Below, piece after piece: positions 27,816-36,709 of a stretch of DNA of 64,000 nt. Position 1 is the stretch's first letter. The number at the start of each line of letters is the position of its first letter. Below the pieces are notes generated by a model. The model worked only from the letters and a program-made list of their open reading frames with translations, ran no database searches and was not told where the DNA came from. This DNA comes from Acidobacteriota bacterium (GTDB lineage Bacteria; Acidobacteriota; Blastocatellia; Pyrinomonadales; Pyrinomonadaceae), in NCBI GenBank assembly GCA_003697135.1, contig RFGC01000037.1:62001-126000 (forward strand). Direction: 5' to 3'. Made by a program: the position numbers and the translations under genes.

Positions 27816-30800
27816 TCATTTCGCAAGTTTATCGGCGATAGGTTTTCCGAATTTGTAGAAAACTGCTGGAGTAACGAGTTGGTCTAAGAGAGTAGAAGTC
27901 AAAATCCCGCCTAATACGACTACTGCCAAAGGATGAAGGATCTCTTTACCTGGTTTATCGGCCGCAAGTGCAAAAGGTATAAGCGAAAGTCCTGTTGTCA
28001 GTGCTGTCATCATTACAGGGACGAGTCTTTCGAGTGAACCGCGTATTATCATTTTTTCATCGAATTTTTCGCCTTCTTCACGCATTAAGTGCAAGTAGTG
28101 GGAAATCATCATGATTCCGTTTCGGCTGGTTATTCCTGCAAGCGACACAAAACCGACTAAAGTTGCAACCGAAAAAATACCGCCTGAAAGATGCATCGCC
28201 CATATTGCGCCGATCAATGCGAGCGGAATGTTTATCATCACTTGAAGAGCGGCACGCCAGTCTCCAAGAGATTTCATCAAGAGCATAAAGATAGCGATTA
28301 GCGAAAAAACGGAAAGAATCAGCAAAATCCTTGTAGCTTCTTGTTGTGCCTCGAACTGCCCGCTGTATTCGATAAAATAGCCTTCGGGCAAAGTGATTTG
28401 CGTCGCAATTCTTTCCTTAATTTCTTTGACAATCGAGCCTAAATCGCGTCCACTCGTGTTTGCTGAGACTACGATACGACGCTTGGCATTTTCTCTTAAA
28501 ATCTGATTCGGGCCGGGCAAAATCTCAATTGTTGCAACAGCAGAAACGGGGATTTGTGTTCCTTGTGGCGTGTCAATCGTTATTTGGTGAAGAATATCCA
28601 ACGATTGACGATAAGAATCTTCAAGTCGCACCACAACATCGTATCTTTTTGATCCTTCGATAACTTCCGAAACTTTCTTGCCGTTTAGTGCTGTTTCCAA
28701 AGTTTCAGCGATTTCGCCCGGATTGAGTCCGTATTGGGCGGCGCGTTCGCGGTCTATTTGAAAACGGACTTGCGGAATCAAAACTTGCTTTTCAATTTGC
28801 ACGTCGGTTGTGCCTTCGACATCAGCCACGACGTTGCGGATTTCCTCTGCTTTCGCTCTAAGAATCTGCAAGTCATCACCGAAGAGCTTAATGGCAATCT
28901 GCGCACGGACGCCTGATTGTAGATGATCCAAACGATGAGAAATCGGCTGTCCGACGTTGACTGAAACTCCCGGAATCAGGGAAAGTTTTTCTCTAACTTT
29001 GTTAAGAATTTCTTCACGCGTTGAGTTTGACGGCTTCAAAACAACATCAATTTCTGTGTAATGAACTCCTTCGGCGTGTTCATCGAGTTCTGCGCGGCCT
29101 GTCCGGCGTCCTGTTGAAGCGACTTCAGGAATTTCAAGCAGGAGTTTTTCAGCGATTTGCCCGATGCGATTCGATTCTGAAAGCGATGTTCCCGGTTGAG
29201 CTAAAACATTTATCGTTAAAGTGCCTTCGTTAAATTCCGGCAAAAACGAAGTCCCAACAAAAGGTAGCGTTGCAAGAGTGATTACAAATAGAATTGCGGC
29301 TCCGCCGATTACTTTCATCGGATTGCGAAGCGTCCATCTGAGAAGTTTTTCGTCATATTTCTTCAGTTGAGTAACTACGAAACTTTCTTTATCAGTTCGT
29401 ATTAGCTTCATTTTAGGCAGAAGATATGAAGCCAGGACAGGCGTCAACGTCAAACTGACAAACAGGGAAGCAATCAACGAAGTGATATAGGCAACTCCCA
29501 GCGGAGCAAGTAATCTACCTTCAACGCCTGAAAGCATGAACAAAGGCAGAAAAACAAGAGCCACAATGACGGTTGCATAAACTATGGACGAGCGAATTTC
29601 TAGCGATGCTTGATAAACAACCTGCAAAGACGGAAGCGGATTCGGTGATTGTGCGTTTTCCCTGAGACGCCGATAAATGTTTTCTAAATCAACGATTGCA
29701 TCATCAACCAATTCTCCAATCGCCACTGCTAAACCACCTAACGTCATTGTGTTTATTGTGATGTCGAAAGCCCGAAAAATCAGAAAGGTTACAACGAAAG
29801 AGAGCGGTATTGCCGTAAGCGTTATGAAAGTTGTTCGCAGATTCAGCAAAAAGAGAAACAAAACAATTGTTACCAAAATCGCACCGTCACGTAGCGCTTC
29901 GATTACGTTGCTTATGGCAGATTGAATGAAATCAGCTTGTCTAAATAGCCTTGTATTGATTTCAATGTCGGAAGGAAGCATTGATTGCAATTCTTTGATT
30001 GCAGTATCAATTTTTTCGGTCAATTCAATCGTATCTGCGCCGGGTTGTTTTTGAATCGAAAGAATAACTGCGGGTTGTCCGTTTGCTCCCGCGTCGCCTC
30101 GTTTTATTTTTGCTCCGAAGTCAACCTTTGCGACGTCGCCAAGCCGAATCGGTGTTCCGTTTCGGTAAGTAACAATTGTGCTGCGAAGTTCTTCGATTGT
30201 ATAAAACCTACCTAGATTCCTTATCAAAAATTCCTGACTCTGAACATCAAGAAAACCGCCTGTTGTGTTTACATTTGATTTTTCAAGAACTGAAACGATT
30301 TCTTCTATCGTGATGCCGAATTGAGCCAGTTTTTCGGGTGAAACAAGCACCTGATATTGTTTAACGCCACCGCCAATCGGAATCACTTGCGAAACGCCCG
30401 GAATCGTCATCAATCTTGGTCTGATTGTCCAATCCGCTAGTGTTCGCAATTCCAATGGATCGGTTTTTCCATCTTTGCTTGTTACCGAAATCAGCATGAT
30501 TTCGCCCATTATCGAAGAAATGGGCGCAAGAACCGAGACAGCATCTGAAGGAAGCTGGTCTTTGGCTTGAGAAAGTTTTTCGGCTACTAGCTGGCGATTT
30601 CTGTAAATATCAGTTCCCCAATCGAATTCAACATATACAATTGAAAGCCCCACACCGCTTTGTGAGCGAACGCGTGTTACGCCTGCAACTCCTGTCATTA
30701 AGGTTTCTATTGGAAATGAAACCTGCGTTTCGACTTCTTCAGGAGCCAAACCGCCAGCCTCGGTCAAAATTGTCACAGTTGGCTTATTAAGGTCCGGAAA

Positions 30801-30911
30801 AACATCAATCGGGAGATTTACAGCAACATAGCTTCCCCAAGAAAGCAAAAGTGCTGAAATCGCCAAAACCAGTAGCCGATTCTTCAGTGACCAGCGAATT
30901 ATCGCATCCAT
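27816..30911 (-). CDS. Heavy-metal efflux RND transporter, CusA/CzcA family
   Basis: This 1031-residue inner-membrane pump has the RND repeat of twelve spans and two large periplasmic loops. It exports metal ions in exchange for protons through the adaptor and TolC channel encoded upstream. The TM4 region reads 'GGLAVAIGELVDDAIVDLENIYRRLREN' in two adjacent parts, with the Asp/Asp/Glu expected for proton relay. This differs from the DFG-VDGA type of Zn/Co/Cd pumps and the VDAAIVMIEN type of Cu/Ag pumps, so the metal cannot be assigned by motif. It is the last gene of the six-gene minus-strand operon, 74 bases after the DUF305 gene. Confidence 0.93.
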   Translation of the reverse strand: MDAIIRWSLKNRLLVLAISALLLSWGSYVAVNLPIDVFPDLNKPTVTILTEAGGLAPEEVETQVSFPIETLMTGVAGVTRVRSQSGVGLSIVYVEFDWGTDIYRNRQLVAEKLSQAKDQLPSDAVSVLAPISSIMGEIMLISVTSKDGKTDPLELRTLADWTIRPRLMTIPGVSQVIPIGGGVKQYQVLVSPEKLAQFGITIEEIVSVLEKSNVNTTGGFLDVQSQEFLIRNLGRFYTIEELRSTIVTYRNGTPIRLGDVAKVDFGAKIKRGDAGANGQPAVILSIQKQPGADTIELTEKIDTAIKELQSMLPSDIEINTRLFRQADFIQSAISNVIEALRDGAILVTIVLFLFLLNLRTTFITLTAIPLSFVVTFLIFRAFDITINTMTLGGLAVAIGELVDDAIVDLENIYRRLRENAQSPNPLPSLQVVYQASLEIRSSIVYATVIVALVFLPLFMLSGVEGRLLAPLGVAYITSLIASLFVSLTLTPVLASYLLPKMKLIRTDKESFVVTQLKKYDEKLLRWTLRNPMKVIGGAAILFVITLATLPFVGTSFLPEFNEGTLTINVLAQPGTSLSESNRIGQIAEKLLLEIPEVASTGRRTGRAELDEHAEGVHYTEIDVVLKPSNSTREEILNKVREKLSLIPGVSVNVGQPISHRLDHLQSGVRAQIAIKLFGDDLQILRAKAEEIRNVVADVEGTTDVQIEKQVLIPQVRFQIDRERAAQYGLNPGEIAETLETALNGKKVSEVIEGSKRYDVVVRLEDSYRQSLDILHQITIDTPQGTQIPVSAVATIEILPGPNQILRENAKRRIVVSANTSGRDLGSIVKEIKERIATQITLPEGYFIEYSGQFEAQQEATRILLILSVFSLIAIFMLLMKSLGDWRAALQVMINIPLALIGAIWAMHLSGGIFSVATLVGFVSLAGITSRNGIMMISHYLHLMREEGEKFDEKMIIRGSLERLVPVMMTALTTGLSLIPFALAADKPGKEILHPLAVVVLGGILTSTLLDQLVTPAVFYKFGKPIADKLAK

Positions 30912-30985: not shown

Positions 30986-31618
30986 CTATTTCCACTTTTC
31001 TTTCCATTCTTGCATCTGTTTAATTTCCTGCTGTTGCGCTTTTATTATCTGTTCGGCGAGAGTCTTTATCTCTTGACGTTCTGCTTTTTGCAGAGCTTCT
31101 TGAGACATTGTGACAGCGCCTTCATGATGTTCAATCATCAAATCCAAAAACATCAGGTCAAATTCTTTTCCGCTTCTTTTTTCCATCTGTTCCATTCTGC
31201 CGTCTGTCATCATCTTCATTGAATCTTTCATGCCCGGCATCTCCATGTTTATAGCTCTGGGCTTATTCGCATACCACGCTTCTCGCCAAGATTTCATTTG
31301 CTCGATTTCTTTCTTCTGATCCTCAATGATTTTCTCGGCAAATTTTCTTAATTCCTCGTTTGTGGACTTCTTAAGAACGACCTCTGCCATTTCCAGTGCG
31401 CCTTCGTGATGGTGAATCATAGTGTCAATGAACTGAAGATCGTAGGGCGCTCTTTCGGCATCAGGATCGCTCGAGTGAACCGAACCATGTTTCGTATGTG
31501 AATCATGATGAGCACTGTGGTCGGCTGGTTTTGAATGTTCGTTGGTTGTTGGTGTTTGGTGTCCACAACCGAAAACAAACGAAATCAATGCGATTAACAC
31601 AAACAAATTTAATTTCAC
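30986..31618 (-). CDS. His-rich lipoprotein with tandem DUF305 domains
   Basis: This 210-residue protein has a lipobox ('SFVFGC'), a His-rich linker ('HSAHHDSHTKHGSVH') and two helical repeats of the DUF305 type: 'DTMIHHHEGALEMAEVVLKK' and 'LDLMIEHHEGAVTMSQEALQ'. DUF305 is a four-helix ferritin-like fold often encoded with copper or other metal resistance genes. The HHHEGA and EHHEGA motifs plus Met-rich 'EMPGMKDSMKMM' suggest metal binding in the periplasm. The start is GTG 31618, with a strong AAAGGAGG six to seven bases before. It lies 14 bases after the adaptor gene in the efflux operon. Confidence 0.87.
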   Translation of the reverse strand: MKLNLFVLIALISFVFGCGHQTPTTNEHSKPADHSAHHDSHTKHGSVHSSDPDAERAPYDLQFIDTMIHHHEGALEMAEVVLKKSTNEELRKFAEKIIEDQKKEIEQMKSWREAWYANKPRAINMEMPGMKDSMKMMTDGRMEQMEKRSGKEFDLMFLDLMIEHHEGAVTMSQEALQKAERQEIKTLAEQIIKAQQQEIKQMQEWKEKWK

Positions 31619-31632
31619 GGTTTTACCTCCTT

Positions 31633-33606
31633 TTATTGTTTTATTGAACGAAGTTGATAGATTCCTTCAACAACAACTCTTTCGCCCTTTTGTAGTCCCG
31701 ACTTGACCTCTGCATATTGAAGGTCTTCTGAGCCGAGAAGAATAGGGCGTTTTTCAAAAGTTTCTCCGCCTTTGAAAACAAAAACGAAATTCTGTCCTTG
31801 TTCGTTAAAGATTGCTCTTTTCGGAACGGCAAGCTGGCTTTGAGCTTCGTCACTTTGAATACTGATTTCGACGAACATACCATCTCTCAACGCCCCGCGT
31901 GGATTTTTGACTTTGTAAACAACCGTAACCATTCGTGTTTGCTGATTTACGGTTTGTCCGATAAAAACAAGGTCTTCGTTTCCGATTTCATAGACTTCGC
32001 CTTCAAGAGATGGTGCAGTGAAACTTGCCCGTCCAACTTTGCGCAAGATTGGCAAATCTCCTTCAAAAACTTGTGCTTCCAAGAGCATTTCTGAGGTGTC
32101 AATAACCGAGAGAATTTCCTTACCTGCCTCAACGATTTGTCCGTTCGCAACTTTTACGTCATCAATTACGCCTTTAATCGGTGATAGGAGCGGAAAGATT
32201 CTTTTTGGTTCATTGACTTTGGGGCTACTGAAAATTCTCTGTCCCGTTTCGGCTTGTTTGATTTGTTCTTCCAAAAGAGCAACCTGCTTTTCAGTTGATG
32301 CGACTTCCTGCTCGGCTATTTTCGCTTCGGTTTGTGCTTCTTCAAGGCGTTTTTGCGGAACTGCACCAATTTTTGCAAGATTTTCAGCACGCTTTAGTTC
32401 ACGCTGAGCTTGAAGAGCCTGCGCCTTAGCTTGATTTAGCCTTGCACGCTGATTGGCTAGTTGTGACTGAAGTTGCAAAATTGTGTTTTTCAATTCTAAT
32501 TGCTTTATCTCAACTTCGCGCCGCTGCGCTTCGATTTCAAGGCGTTGAGATTCAAGCGTAGCTTGATTAGAAACGTCCAGCACTTGCTCTATTGTTCCAA
32601 TTGGCTGGTTTCGTCCGACAACCGAGCCTAAACCGATTCCTTGATTAAAAATAACCTTGCCTGTGACACTTGCCGTAATCACTGCACGGCTTTCGGGTTT
32701 CGCCTTCACGATGCCGTTTACCTTCAAGCCTGCTCTTATTTTTCTTTCGGAGATCGTTTCTGTTTTAATCCCAAAAAGCAGTTGAGTTTCTTTAGGCAAA
32801 GTCACGGTGGCTGTTTCATTCAAAGCATTAAGCGGAATTTCCTTTACTTGCGCGAGCGGAATTTCGGGAATGTTTCTCGCCTGTTGCAGTGGGAAAAAGT
32901 ATGAAAGTAGCAAAACACTTGCGACAAATAACAAAATTCCCAAAGCCACAATGCGAACAGCTCTAACGGTGTTTAAGCCACCATTTTTCCTGAACGAATA
33001 GAAGAAAACTCCTATCAAACCGAAACACAGCAAGATTAAAGTTACTAATCCGAGCCAGAAATATGAATTCATCGGCGCAGAAGAGACACTCAAAGGAAAA
33101 TCAACCGTAAACTGCCGATTGTCTTCAGTGGTGACTTGAAGAGTTATTTTGTAATTGCCTACACTTGAGAAAACATAAGAAAATCTATAAATCCCATCGC
33201 CTTCAGCTTTTACAGCTAGATTTTCTGCCTCAATTATGCCTTTTTCTGATTCTGAAACTGTGACGCTTAATTTTGCATTGTCAATCGGCAATTCACTATC
33301 GCTTCCGAAACCACCTTCGATTTTTTCAGTTATCCGAACAGCAAAATTCACCGTTTCCGACGTTCTCGGATCGCTCGGTGAGCGCTTCATTGTAATCCTG
33401 AAGTGCCCATTTTCAGTTTCGATATTGCGCTCGGCTGAAGCTATTTTGATTGACTCCTTTGCTTGTGGCTTGGTTTTTGAGTCTTCGGCGTGTTCTTCGC
33501 CTTCATGAGCAAGAAGTCCAAAGTTGATTCCCAAGGCTAAAATGAGAAGCCATAAAAGACACAACCGAAGCTTTGAAGGTAAAAATTTTCCTATAGACTT
33601 TCTCAT
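31633..33606 (-). CDS. RND efflux periplasmic adaptor fused to an N-terminal YtkA-like domain
   Basis: This 657-residue protein has an N-terminal signal-like span and an extracytoplasmic beta domain (about 50-180: 'ENGHFRITMKRSPSDPRTSE', 'GDGIYRFSYVFSSVGNYKIT'), then two further spans (about 183-205 and 217-240). A membrane-fusion adaptor follows from about residue 260: 'LFGIKTETISERKIRAGLKVNG', a long coiled-coil hairpin rich in Gln and Ala, and 'LLSPIKGVIDDVKVANGQIV'. Normal CusB/CzcB adaptors lack the first 250 residues. The N-terminal beta domain resembles YtkA/FixH-type domains and also the product at 35726. It would bridge pump and TolC and possibly bind metal. Confidence 0.87.
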   Translation of the reverse strand: MRKSIGKFLPSKLRLCLLWLLILALGINFGLLAHEGEEHAEDSKTKPQAKESIKIASAERNIETENGHFRITMKRSPSDPRTSETVNFAVRITEKIEGGFGSDSELPIDNAKLSVTVSESEKGIIEAENLAVKAEGDGIYRFSYVFSSVGNYKITLQVTTEDNRQFTVDFPLSVSSAPMNSYFWLGLVTLILLCFGLIGVFFYSFRKNGGLNTVRAVRIVALGILLFVASVLLLSYFFPLQQARNIPEIPLAQVKEIPLNALNETATVTLPKETQLLFGIKTETISERKIRAGLKVNGIVKAKPESRAVITASVTGKVIFNQGIGLGSVVGRNQPIGTIEQVLDVSNQATLESQRLEIEAQRREVEIKQLELKNTILQLQSQLANQRARLNQAKAQALQAQRELKRAENLAKIGAVPQKRLEEAQTEAKIAEQEVASTEKQVALLEEQIKQAETGQRIFSSPKVNEPKRIFPLLSPIKGVIDDVKVANGQIVEAGKEILSVIDTSEMLLEAQVFEGDLPILRKVGRASFTAPSLEGEVYEIGNEDLVFIGQTVNQQTRMVTVVYKVKNPRGALRDGMFVEISIQSDEAQSQLAVPKRAIFNEQGQNFVFVFKGGETFEKRPILLGSEDLQYAEVKSGLQKGERVVVEGIYQLRSIKQ

Positions 33607-33630: not shown

Positions 33631-34284
33631 TCAATGTGTGTGCGGTTTTCCGTAAAGCGCTTCCATTGTTAAAACATCAACTCGCACGGCTTGAGTGATT
33701 GCCTTTGCCTGTCTTTCGTCAGCGCCTTTAGCTTTTATGTCTTCGCCGAACTTGATTTTTGAGTCGTGATTCTTGCCGATGAATTGATCAAGAAATGCTT
33801 TGGGAACATCTTTGGCATGTATCTCTTTAACTGTTGGCATTCCATCTTTGCTTTCGTAAACGATGATTATCTCTTTTCCCTCGACGTTAAGAATGGTTGC
33901 CGCGCCTATTTGTGTGCGTTTCCCATCTTTTGTGGTAAAGGCCAAATAGGCGTAGTGCTCTTTGCTTGCGAGTTTAGTGCCTGTATCTTTCTCGATGCTT
34001 TCAATTGCGCTTTGCGAAAGCTCCTTGCGTTGTTTGACAAAACTTTGCGCATCGGGAAAGAGTTTTTTTACCGATTCAGGAATTTCATCTGACTTTTCTC
34101 TTTGCTGGCTTTCGCTTTGCCGAGTATCGGAGACTCTGGCTTGATTTTCTTCGGTCTTCAGTGCAGAATCCGATGAACAGGCACTTAAGAAAAGAACTGC
34201 GAGAGAAAGAATCACCGAAAATGAAATCACAATTGAAAAGCCTGATGACAGAAAGGTTGTTTGCAGTGGCGATAGTCTTTTCAT
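33631..34284 (-). CDS. Lipoprotein with FMN-binding-like domain
   Basis: This 217-residue protein has a signal peptide ending 'VLFLSAC', a lipobox. The mature part begins with a polar linker and then resembles FMN-binding domain proteins: 'ESVKKLFPDAQSFVKQRKEL', 'GTKLASKEHYAYLAFTTKDGK', and 'KAITQAVRVDVLTMEALYG'. In flavinylated members a GAT-x-S/T motif before the 'AIT-AVR' helix carries FMN on Thr. Here the matching stretch reads 'AKGADERQAKAIT' with no Thr at that place, so covalent flavin attachment is doubtful. A redox or metal-sensing role is unproven. It overlaps tolC by four bases (ATGA). Confidence 0.72.
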   Translation of the reverse strand: MKRLSPLQTTFLSSGFSIVISFSVILSLAVLFLSACSSDSALKTEENQARVSDTRQSESQQREKSDEIPESVKKLFPDAQSFVKQRKELSQSAIESIEKDTGTKLASKEHYAYLAFTTKDGKRTQIGAATILNVEGKEIIIVYESKDGMPTVKEIHAKDVPKAFLDQFIGKNHDSKIKFGEDIKAKGADERQAKAITQAVRVDVLTMEALYGKPHTH

Positions 34285-35729
34285 TTTTGCTTCTCCTTAG
34301 AAAATTTTTGAACTGATTGGGAAAGTTTTTCTTTGTCAATTTGCGTTTGTTGTGCCGAAGAATTTATCGGCGATGCGAAGGAACTTTTTGAAAGTTTCTT
34401 GCCTACAGCCGCTTCAAGTTGGGCAAGAGCAACGTAGTAATCTCGCAAAGCCTGATTATATCCATTTGAGTTTTCTATCAATCGTCGCTGTTCGTTTATT
34501 AGCTCAAAAACGGAAAACTCACCAAATCCGTAAGCCGCATTTACCGACTGTAGATTTGCTTCTGCGCGCGGCAGAATTTGCGTTGAATAAATGACCAAAG
34601 TCTCGATTGCAGCACGATATTTTCGATACGCATTAGTTACATCAGCTTTAATTTTATTCTCCAGAAATTCCAGCGTTTTCGTAGCTTGCATTTTTTCTGC
34701 GGTCGCTACTGCGATTTCACCTTGGTTGCGATTGAAAATCGGCAGATTTAACGAAACTCCAAAGCCTAAAGCCTTCTCACGCTTGATAAACGAAGTAGGG
34801 TTTTGTGGTGACATTAAAGGGAATTCAAAGATTTGTTTTGTTTGCGAAAAGCCTATAGAAGTAGTTAGGTCGGGGATTAAGCCACTTTTAGCCAGATTCA
34901 ACCGGGCTTCGGCGATTTCCTTTGATAATTTCACTGCTTGAAGATCAGGACGCTCTCTGAGTGCGGTCTCGATCAATTCGCTCAACGTAAAATCAACAAG
35001 CATTGGTTTTTCGTCTTGTGGCGAAAGGCTTAATTGCTCCTCAATTGGAATCCCGACTTTCAGTTTCAGGTCTAGAATTTGTGTCTCAAGTTCGGCTTTT
35101 GTTTGCACAGCTTGAATCTTTAGGCGTTCAATCTCAACTTTTATCAAGTTCAAATCAAGTGGTGCGACATCGCCTTCTGAAACTCTCGCCTCAGTGGCTT
35201 TTATTATTTCTTGATCAGCACTTATCAGCCTTTGCAAAGTGTTTAGTTGCCGTGATAAGGCAATTGCATTGGTATAAGCACTGATTATTTCAATTTCGAT
35301 TTGCTTTTCTAGTGCCGCAAGTTCAGCTTTTGTTTGCTGAAGCTCTAGTTCTGCAATGAGCTTGCGTTTTTGACGTTTTCCGCCTAGCTCAAAATTTTGA
35401 GAAAGTTTTACCGAAAAATCGGTTTCTGGCTTTTCGCCAAGAAAGCGCGGGCTTGCATATTCTATGTCAATAGTCGGATTTGGCAGTAAAGAAGCCTGCT
35501 GGAGCTTTCCTTGAGCGATTTTCAAGCGTTGCTTTGCCGCTTGTAAGTCTGCTCGTTCGCTTTTGGCTATTTCAACTAGCTTTTCAACCGTTAGTCCGTC
35601 CTTTGAGATAATCTCAAAAGATTTCATCGCATCTTGTGTAAATACAGTGACAACAAAGCAAAACAACACTTTCAAGCCGAGAAGGCTAATTTTCACGAGA
35701 TGTCTAGATTTTTTGCATAGGATTTTCAT
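34281..35729 (-). CDS. TolC-family outer-membrane efflux channel
   Basis: This 482-residue protein has a signal peptide and two repeats of the outer membrane efflux protein family: 'AKSERADLQAAKQRLKIAQGKL' and 'ALRERPDLQAVKLSKEIAEARL'. Heptad-rich helices form the periplasmic barrel and short beta segments form the outer-membrane part. It would form the exit duct of the RND system, as CusC/CzcC does. It is joined by ATGA overlaps both to the upstream YtkA-like gene and to the downstream FMN-binding-like gene, so the middle of the operon is translationally coupled. Confidence 0.92.
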   Translation of the reverse strand: MKILCKKSRHLVKISLLGLKVLFCFVVTVFTQDAMKSFEIISKDGLTVEKLVEIAKSERADLQAAKQRLKIAQGKLQQASLLPNPTIDIEYASPRFLGEKPETDFSVKLSQNFELGGKRQKRKLIAELELQQTKAELAALEKQIEIEIISAYTNAIALSRQLNTLQRLISADQEIIKATEARVSEGDVAPLDLNLIKVEIERLKIQAVQTKAELETQILDLKLKVGIPIEEQLSLSPQDEKPMLVDFTLSELIETALRERPDLQAVKLSKEIAEARLNLAKSGLIPDLTTSIGFSQTKQIFEFPLMSPQNPTSFIKREKALGFGVSLNLPIFNRNQGEIAVATAEKMQATKTLEFLENKIKADVTNAYRKYRAAIETLVIYSTQILPRAEANLQSVNAAYGFGEFSVFELINEQRRLIENSNGYNQALRDYYVALAQLEAAVGKKLSKSSFASPINSSAQQTQIDKEKLSQSVQKFSKEKQK

Positions 35730-36307
35730 CTTAATTCGACAGAAGGATCGAGTTTGTCTTTTGTGATACGTTTTATCAGATAGAAGCCAATTGCAAATAG
35801 GATCGAAGTCAAAGCGACAAGAGCCAGCAGAGCATAGTTTTCATCCGATTTTTGTTCCATGTTAAGTGAATTAGCTTTTACTTCTATCGGAAATGTAGCC
35901 GTATTGGTTTTCTCTCTAGAGATAATCTTTGCTAAAACCGTGTATTTTCCTTCTTCAAGTGCAGGAAATTTTAACTCATAGCTTCCGGGAAATTTTCCCT
36001 TCTCTACTTGCACTTGATACCTGAGTCCGTCATTTCTTTCGATCTCGACTTCTAATGCGGCATTTATAGGCTCGTTTGTTTCGTATTTTGTGATAAAGAG
36101 TTTTGCTGAGGTCTGCGTATCTGGAAGAAGCGGTGGATATTTCAACAAGATTTCGTAATCATCAAGCCTTAAAACATTTGCGATTACCTCAGCGTTTGAA
36201 GAACTCGATACTTTTTGTTCTTCGCCGTGATGTTCGTCGCCGTGAGCGAATACGGAAGGAGCGAAAAGAAAAACACACAAGAAGAGCGTTAAAATTAGAT
36301 GTTTCAT
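35726..36307 (-). CDS. Periplasmic YtkA-like protein with C-terminal membrane anchor
   Basis: This roughly 193-residue protein starts with signal sequence 'MKHLILTLFLCVFLFAPSVFA' split at FA|HGDEHHGEE, exposing a His/Glu-rich metal-binding-like N-terminus. A beta-sandwich of the YtkA/FixH kind follows ('DYEILLKYPPLLPDTQTSA', 'FPGSYELKFPALEEGKYTV') and then one C-terminal span ('YALLALVALTSILFAIGFYLI'). Start ATG 36307 is preferred over TTG 36349. It is the first gene of the metal efflux operon, about 54 bases after the predicted sigma-54 start site. Its domain is related to the N-terminal part of the adaptor in the same operon. Confidence 0.75.
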   Translation of the reverse strand: MKHLILTLFLCVFLFAPSVFAHGDEHHGEEQKVSSSSNAEVIANVLRLDDYEILLKYPPLLPDTQTSAKLFITKYETNEPINAALEVEIERNDGLRYQVQVEKGKFPGSYELKFPALEEGKYTVLAKIISREKTNTATFPIEVKANSLNMEQKSDENYALLALVALTSILFAIGFYLIKRITKDKLDPSVELR

Positions 36308-36370
36308 ATATTGGGATTTTGTTTTAGTTTGTTTATCGGTCTTGTCCAATTTACTCAGCAGGTTTATGGA

Positions 36371-36386
36371 AGCAAAAGTAGTGCCA
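36371..36386 (-). promoter_or_regulatory. Sigma-54 (RpoN) promoter of the metal efflux operon
   Basis: On the minus strand the site reads TGGCACTACTTTTGCT, matching the TGGCAC-N5-TTGC(A/T) consensus completely, with GG and GC ten bases apart. Transcription would start near 36361, about 54 bases before the first ATG of the operon. It lies just beyond the terminator of the preceding gene. Confidence 0.75.
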
Positions 36387-36395
36387 GTCTATAAA

Positions 36396-36434
36396 AAACA
36401 CAAAAAGCCCCTAAATACGGGACTTTTTGTGTTT
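36396..36434 (-). terminator. Rho-independent terminator after the small secreted-protein gene
   Basis: AAACACAAAAAG (36396-36407) pairs with CTTTTTGTGTTT (36423-36434), with an inner CCC/GGG and a seven-base loop. On the minus strand it continues into TTTTTTATAG. It separates the gene at 36500-36709 from the efflux operon. Confidence 0.85.
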
Positions 36435-36460
36435 CTGCTTGGTCTAACGTGAATGCTGAC

Positions 36461-36476
36461 TGTTTGAATTCAAACA
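36461..36476. promoter_or_regulatory. Perfect 16-base palindrome, candidate activator site upstream of the sigma-54 promoter
   Basis: TGTTTGAATTCAAACA is fully self-complementary and its centre lies about 105-110 bases upstream of the predicted sigma-54 start site. This is the usual distance for an enhancer-binding protein. It is not part of the neighbouring terminator stem. Confidence 0.45.
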
Positions 36477-36499
36477 ATTGGATGTCTGTTATCAAATAC

Positions 36500-36709
36500 C
36501 TACGGTTTTCCTCTCTTCTTTTCCTTATCTTCCTCCCTATCAGGTTTTTCTCTTTCCCTTGGTGGTTTTTCTCTTTCAGGGACTACGACCACAGGCGGGT
36601 CTTCCTTTGGTGGTGGATTTTTCCTTTTGTCTTGCCCGTCTTGTGCAAGGCTGAACTGCAAGGTGAACAAAGCAAAAGTAAGAATCATTATTGCGATTGT
36701 CTTTTTCAT
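36500..36709 (-). CDS. Small secreted proline-rich, highly charged protein
   Basis: This 69-residue product has a clear signal peptide ('MKKTIAIMILTFALFTLQFS' then LAQDG) and a mature part of about 45 residues made almost only of Pro, Lys, Arg, Glu and Asp ('PPPKEDPPVVVVPEREKPPR'). No known domain is recognised. A TAGGAG lies two bases before the ATG and a strong terminator follows the gene, both supporting that it is real. The product is probably extended and disordered in the periplasm, and may bind nucleic acid, cell wall or metal; the function is unknown. Confidence 0.6.
   Translation of the reverse strand: MKKTIAIMILTFALFTLQFSLAQDGQDKRKNPPPKEDPPVVVVPEREKPPREREKPDREEDKEKKRGKP

Follow-up and report, generated by a model that had tools for sequence, protein, structure and literature searches.

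A predicted sigma-54-dependent promoter with a conserved tandem-palindrome enhancer before a heavy-metal efflux operon in Blastocatellia

Introduction

Most known metal-efflux RND operons are placed under OmpR- or MerR-type regulators that work with sigma-70, and in the CusRS-CusCFBA and CzcRS-CzcCBA systems the regulators are of the OmpR type and likewise act with sigma-70. The classical sigma-54 metal system is ZraSR of Escherichia coli, which responds to zinc and lead and controls zraP and itself, but not an RND pump. At NtrC-type enhancers, the dyad sites lie some 80-150 bp upstream and as a rule share one face of the helix. Closest to the case described here are two systems of Myxococcus xanthus. 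The first, CorSR, governs the curA copper operon, which comprises cupredoxin, multicopper oxidase, DUF305, and CopA genes with predicted sigma-54 promoters, and whose induction is abolished by deletion of corSR (PMC3707914). The second, Nla28, has been reported to act directly at the sigma-54 promoter of the CusA/CusB operon MXAN989 (PMC9765219).

Here, we present a computational analysis of a 64-kb stretch of Acidobacteriota DNA (the window, meaning the whole stretch that was analysed) from a bacterium that its relatives place in or close to the Pyrinomonadaceae. In this stretch, an earlier sequence-only reading had pointed to an RpoN promoter with an upstream palindrome before a metal-efflux operon. 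From the comparison with relatives, we consider it very probable that this operon is transcribed by sigma-54 RNA polymerase and is activated by an NtrC-type kinase-regulator pair acting through tandem palindromes. In the literature outside subscription papers, we found no earlier description of the operon or of the regulator in Acidobacteriota.

Results

The efflux operon

The HME-RND operon is made up of six minus-strand genes that extend from 36307 to 27816 (Table 1), with the gene downstream of it lying on the opposite strand. Its pump scores above the TIGR00914 cut-off and has E. coli CusA as its best solved structure, and it is accompanied by an adaptor (TIGR01730, 126.9 versus a cut-off of 94.9) and an outer membrane channel, the combination that characterizes a CusA/CzcA heavy-metal RND system. 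The identity that the sequence-only reading had given to the operon is thus upheld by the matches to TIGR00914, TIGR01730, and PF02321. For the product of gene 3, no significant match to a Pfam family or a solved structure was obtained, and an FMN-binding domain, which we had suspected by eye, was unsupported by either the Pfam or the structure comparison. In the operons of relatives, this protein is 38-52% identical and displays an invariant C36 together with several invariant histidines and glycines.

Table 1. Features of the efflux locus (positions in the window) and of the candidate regulatory genes (positions in locus L085, contig C40).
Feature	Position	Strand	Remarks
Gene 1, 193-aa exported/membrane protein, His-rich near N terminus	35726..36307	-	weak DUF6488 similarity
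Gene 2, outer membrane efflux protein (CusC/CzcC type)	34281..35729	-	PF02321, 1.3e-51
Gene 3, 217-aa lipoprotein-like protein, no known family	33631..34284	-	kept in relatives' operons
Gene 4, periplasmic adaptor (CusB/CzcB type), extended N terminus	31633..33606	-	PF16576, TIGR01730 above cut-off
Gene 5, DUF305 protein	30986..31618	-	PF03713, 5.4e-46
Gene 6, CusA/CzcA-family heavy-metal RND pump	27816..30911	-	TIGR00914, 882.8 bits (cut-off 701)
Predicted transcription start	36359..36361	-	placed from GG at -25/-24 by standard sigma-54 spacing
Putative sigma-54 promoter, -24/-12 elements TGGCAC-TACTT-TTGCT	36371..36386	-	exact consensus match
18-bp hairpin with T-rich tail	36394..36436	-	fold -25 kcal/mol, z -7.5
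Inner enhancer palindrome, TGTTTGAATTCAAACA	36461..36476		perfect 16-bp palindrome; kept in relatives
Outer enhancer palindrome, TGTCTGTTATCAAATA	36483..36498		one mismatch; tandem unique in genome
Response regulator, REC-AAA+-Fis	L085:8384-9745		PF00072, PF00158, PF02954; GAFTGA present
Histidine kinase, DUF4118-like membrane sensor	L085:7246-8373		adjoins response regulator

The sigma-54 promoter box

On the minus strand, and just as the sequence-only reading had it, TGGCACTACTTTTGCT is an exact match to TGGCAC-N5-TTGCW, with GG and GC at -24/-12 and a 10-bp spacing, and it is the sole such match in the window. The start codon of the operon follows ~64 nt downstream of this box, and the predicted transcription start (~36360) would give a 5' UTR of ~53 nt. 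Across the 2.79-Mb genome there are eight exact boxes, as against two for the reversed-pattern control, and judged by their positions relative to ORFs, four of them are intergenic (that of the window included) and four are intragenic. By itself, the box sequence lends moderate support to a sigma-54 promoter. As for the sigma factor, whose absence would have spoken against such a promoter, rpoN is present in the genome and intact (PF04552, 2.1e-59; a 539-aa ORF with an RpoN box).

Elsewhere in the genome, two exact boxes (L002 and L003, at G000:C3:5262 and 5506) lie between divergent response-regulator-like genes, one of which encodes an enhancer-binding protein that is possibly self-regulated. 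Downstream of another (L007, at G000:C20:69782), a gene whose product starts MKHRPVKYFEKGLTYLAGG begins after 45-50 bp and is a likely further target of sigma-54.

The tandem palindromes and the intervening hairpin

A perfect 16-bp palindrome centred at ~-108 had already been recognized in the sequence-only reading, correctly so, though as a lone element it is weak evidence, with ~1 such palindrome per 64 kb to be expected by chance (4^-8 per position, our estimate). The view that this single palindrome is the whole enhancer was dropped, as an alignment of relatives revealed a conserved tandem of two. The outer palindrome, centred at ~-130, is located 6 bp further upstream than the inner one, which makes 22 bp from centre to centre, or about two helical turns, and the pair lies where the dyad sites of an NtrC-type enhancer are found. 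The tandem amounts to TGTYTGNNNNCARACA twice and is unique in the genome when up to three mismatches are allowed, while the inner copy is the only exact TGTYTGNNNNCARACA of the genome. What lends the palindrome weight is its place in a tandem that is found once in the genome and is conserved in relatives. The proposed genome search for additional copies of the palindrome came to nothing, as no further exact copy was found and copies with one mismatch were near chance (29 versus 17 for the control). The earlier idea of a complete enhancer-dependent promoter stands insofar as both of its elements are conserved in relatives, but it had missed the second palindrome of what is a tandem enhancer.

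Likewise overlooked was the strong hairpin that sits between the palindromes and the promoter (Table 1). This hairpin is absent from the list given by a consensus terminator scan; it is probably the intrinsic terminator of a small upstream gene (a 69-aa ORF, 36500-36709), and we infer that it is no part of the conserved promoter. The predicted product of this minus-strand ORF has a signal-peptide-like start followed by a Pro/Lys/Glu-rich region, and 1 bp separates the ORF's stop codon from the outer palindrome.

Conservation in relatives

Relatives of gene 1 were identified in 26 of 145 related genomes, most of which have a -24/-12 box a short distance upstream of the gene and on its strand. 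Sufficient upstream sequence for testing was available for 26 regions. In 21 of them a box reached a score of 9 or more out of 11, and 21 of the 26 likewise contained the tandem with a sigma-54 box 51-98 bp downstream of it, at a joint score that 300 dinucleotide shuffles of each region never attained. Among the five regions failing this joint test, one has a sigma-54 box just beyond the tested stretch, one has a box and no tandem, one has a box that faces the kinase gene, and two have neither element. The box scan on relatives demanded only GG and GC, yet in the 19 best regions (nearly) no variation is seen at the A and C of TGGCAC or at the TT of TTGC. The tandem spacer in relatives is 4-7 bp.

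Orthologous operons with both elements occur in Pyrinomonadaceae and in other Blastocatellia, with the order and orientation fixed. In fact, the promoter elements are kept from operons that are 75% identical to those that are 30% identical, while the remaining upstream sequence has diverged. When both strands of 2.1 Mb of fetched loci were searched, the combination appeared at ~20 distinct places (reversed control, 0), and nearly all of these are the heads of the pump operon or of operons with kinase/regulator genes. The tandem was not found before CopA in relatives. Taken with the operon's identity, this comparative evidence supports the sigma-54 control of a metal-efflux RND operon that the sequence-only reading had predicted.

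Two further arrangements were seen in the fetched loci. In G017 (L079:10837-10701), where no kinase ortholog was detected, the same tandem and sigma-54 box adjoin a different OEP/adaptor cluster. At L196 (G126:C942), gene 1 is divergent from the kinase-regulator pair, and between them lie the tandem and a sigma-54 box, an exact match, directed at the kinase.

The candidate activator pair

The search for sigma-54 activators, also proposed at the outset, gave 11 full enhancer-binding proteins in the genome, and one NtrC-type two-component system among them can be tied to the operon. Its response regulator combines REC, a sigma-54 AAA+ domain with GAFTGA, and a Fis-type HTH, and is the likely activator of the operon, with the adjoining histidine kinase as a candidate membrane metal sensor. 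In the sensor of this kinase, which also has the motif HEIxQRLYYxPI, four histidines (H41, H52, H89, and H93) are invariant and are possible metal ligands. In the window's genome, the pair (G000:C40:257245-259744) and the operon are unlinked, both being on long contigs with the genes far from the contig ends. Moreover, there are no regulator genes beside the operon among the ORFs of the window, and no tandem enhancer was seen before the kinase/regulator genes of the same genome (L018, L085-type loci).

Because of this lack of linkage, the assignment of the pair to the operon rests on relatives. Orthologs of the regulator are beside or near the operon in Pyrinomonas methylaliphatogenes K22 (L090), G063 (L072), G110 (L075/L093), L123, G126 (L196), G008, and others. 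In K22, which is in culture, the operon with its enhancer and promoter directly adjoins the regulator pair. Overall, in 13 of 21 pairs the operon and the kinase share one contig within ~30 kb. The sensor domain of the kinase was detected in 21 of the 26 genomes that have the operon, compared with 14 of the other 119 (Fisher p = 8e-12, which ignores shared ancestry), and within the family in 18 of 21 versus 7 of 68 (p = 1.6e-10, with shared ancestry uncorrected); the domain is thus present in 14 genomes with no detected operon. Set against the remaining ten enhancer-binding proteins of the window's own genome, the regulators fall into a single clade (support 1.0), and their recognition helix ITRSALIYRMQKYGL is nearly invariant among orthologs. 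Furthermore, in G046, G069, and G090 the enhancer-promoter combination is additionally found before an operon holding the regulator or the kinase, as is expected for a self-regulated system.

Discussion

Proposed mechanism

The scheme that we propose draws on the promoter and enhancer sequences and their conservation, the presence of rpoN, and the linkage, co-occurrence, and monophyly described above. Without a signal, sigma-54 RNA polymerase would remain poised on the -24/-12 element. Under metal stress, the sensor kinase would phosphorylate the NtrC-type response regulator, which would then bind the tandem palindromes and form a ring, with the intervening DNA (the terminator hairpin of the upstream gene included) being looped out by the regulator. 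ATP would be used by this ring to open the promoter. The pump operon is the only recognisable target of the pair in the window's genome, and the function that we propose is a dedicated, metal-triggered activation of the pump.

The metal that would be sensed and exported is a less settled part of this scheme. The methionine triad of E. coli CusA, which we take to be M573/M623/M672, aligns with V, Y618, and H in the pump, which therefore departs from the Cus (copper/silver) subtype and weakens the case for copper as the substrate. Moreover, the CusA/CzcA model spans several metals, ZraSR as a system of similar type answers to zinc and lead, and CusAB is driven by Nla28 under starvation (PMC9765219). 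There is accordingly a considerable chance, if short of even, that the architecture is right and the signal is not copper, but a divalent metal (zinc, cobalt, nickel, or lead) or general envelope stress. Opposed to this is the island found in relatives, where the regulator pair and the operon are joined by a copper-type P-ATPase (YHS/HMBD domains), cupredoxins, and DUF305 proteins, and in G127 by a multicopper oxidase as well, a gene content that points to copper or silver and that resembles the inventory of the CorSR copper operon of Myxococcus (PMC3707914). We would thus name copper or silver as the most likely signal and substrate, albeit with measured confidence.

A different activator is an unlikely alternative, in which the promoter and tandem are genuine and the operon is driven by some other member of the 11 enhancer-binding proteins, or by several through cross-talk. 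Such a reading would draw on the missing linkage in the window's genome, on the ten other full enhancer-binding proteins there, and on the failure to detect the kinase in some operon genomes, several of which are incomplete assemblies. However, the kinase-linked regulators near the operon or copper genes in relatives all group with the C40 regulator and none with the other ten, and the same enhancer precedes the regulator operons of G046, G069, and G090. Less probable still is a chance -24/-12 match, with a housekeeping promoter or read-through serving the operon and the palindromes acting as operator for a repressor or some other, unrelated dimeric regulator. Although ~2 exact boxes per genome are expected by chance, some of the genomic ones are intragenic, and a single palindrome of such length is expected about once in the window, the two elements are co-conserved across much-diverged operons, the hairpin would insulate the operon from upstream transcription, and a scan of the region gave no sigma-70-type promoter (the scan consensus being that of E. 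coli and the host an Acidobacteriota).

Comparison with known systems

The proposed pair resembles ZraSR in that an NtrC-type response regulator and a kinase would deal with metal stress through sigma-54, though the target here is an RND pump operon rather than zraP and the system itself, and the scores remain well below the NCBIfam equivalog cut-offs (ZraR, 387.6 versus 760 bits; ZraS, 208.3 versus 479 bits). With CusRS and CzcRS, it has in common the two-component control of an HME-RND operon and the pump family, but not the OmpR-type regulator and sigma-70, which are replaced by an NtrC-type regulator and sigma-54. Indeed, the CusA-family loci of other phyla in this comparison mostly have short OmpR-like regulators and not enhancer-binding proteins.

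As in CorSR, a histidine kinase and a sigma-54-dependent response regulator are assigned to a metal operon, yet curA is without an RND pump (PMC3707914), in contrast to the present operon. The kinases differ as well: the periplasmic sensor of CorS is accompanied by a signal peptide, a single transmembrane segment, and HAMP, while the C40 kinase shows a membrane sensor resembling DUF4118 and gives no HAMP match. The C40 regulator was also considered as a CorR ortholog, but there was no unique best match to it in a Myxococcus genome (best matches of 41-47%, many of them equal, with ORF calling being poor at high GC). Nla28 is similar in being a response-regulator-type enhancer-binding protein at the sigma-54 promoter of a CusAB efflux operon; it is, however, a starvation regulator with many targets and a binding motif of 8-bp CT-rich repeats, as opposed to the dedicated tandem palindrome and single target operon in the window's genome.

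The sequence-only reading had called RpoN control of such an operon unusual, and uncommon it is, but with CorSR and Nla28 in Myxococcus and ZraSR in E. coli, sigma-54 control of metal resistance is already precedented. The present system differs from these in the sensor architecture, the dedicated tandem enhancer with its one target, and the phylum. Whether these features amount to a new Blastocatellia family of metal-sensing sigma-54 two-component systems, with a membrane-embedded sensor (H41, H52, H89, and H93) in place of a periplasmic one and with a single pump operon addressed through a fixed tandem-palindrome enhancer, is a suggestion that we make tentatively and regard as doubtful.

Conclusions

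From this comparison, one group of Acidobacteriota enhancer-binding proteins gains a likely role, along with a concrete regulator, a predicted site, and a promoter. The latter is potentially a tight, low-leak metal-responsive promoter. More broadly, it appears that across a whole bacterial family, in a soil phylum that has received little study, the metal-efflux pump is under sigma-54 control with a strict need for an activator, exerted by one dedicated kinase-regulator pair.
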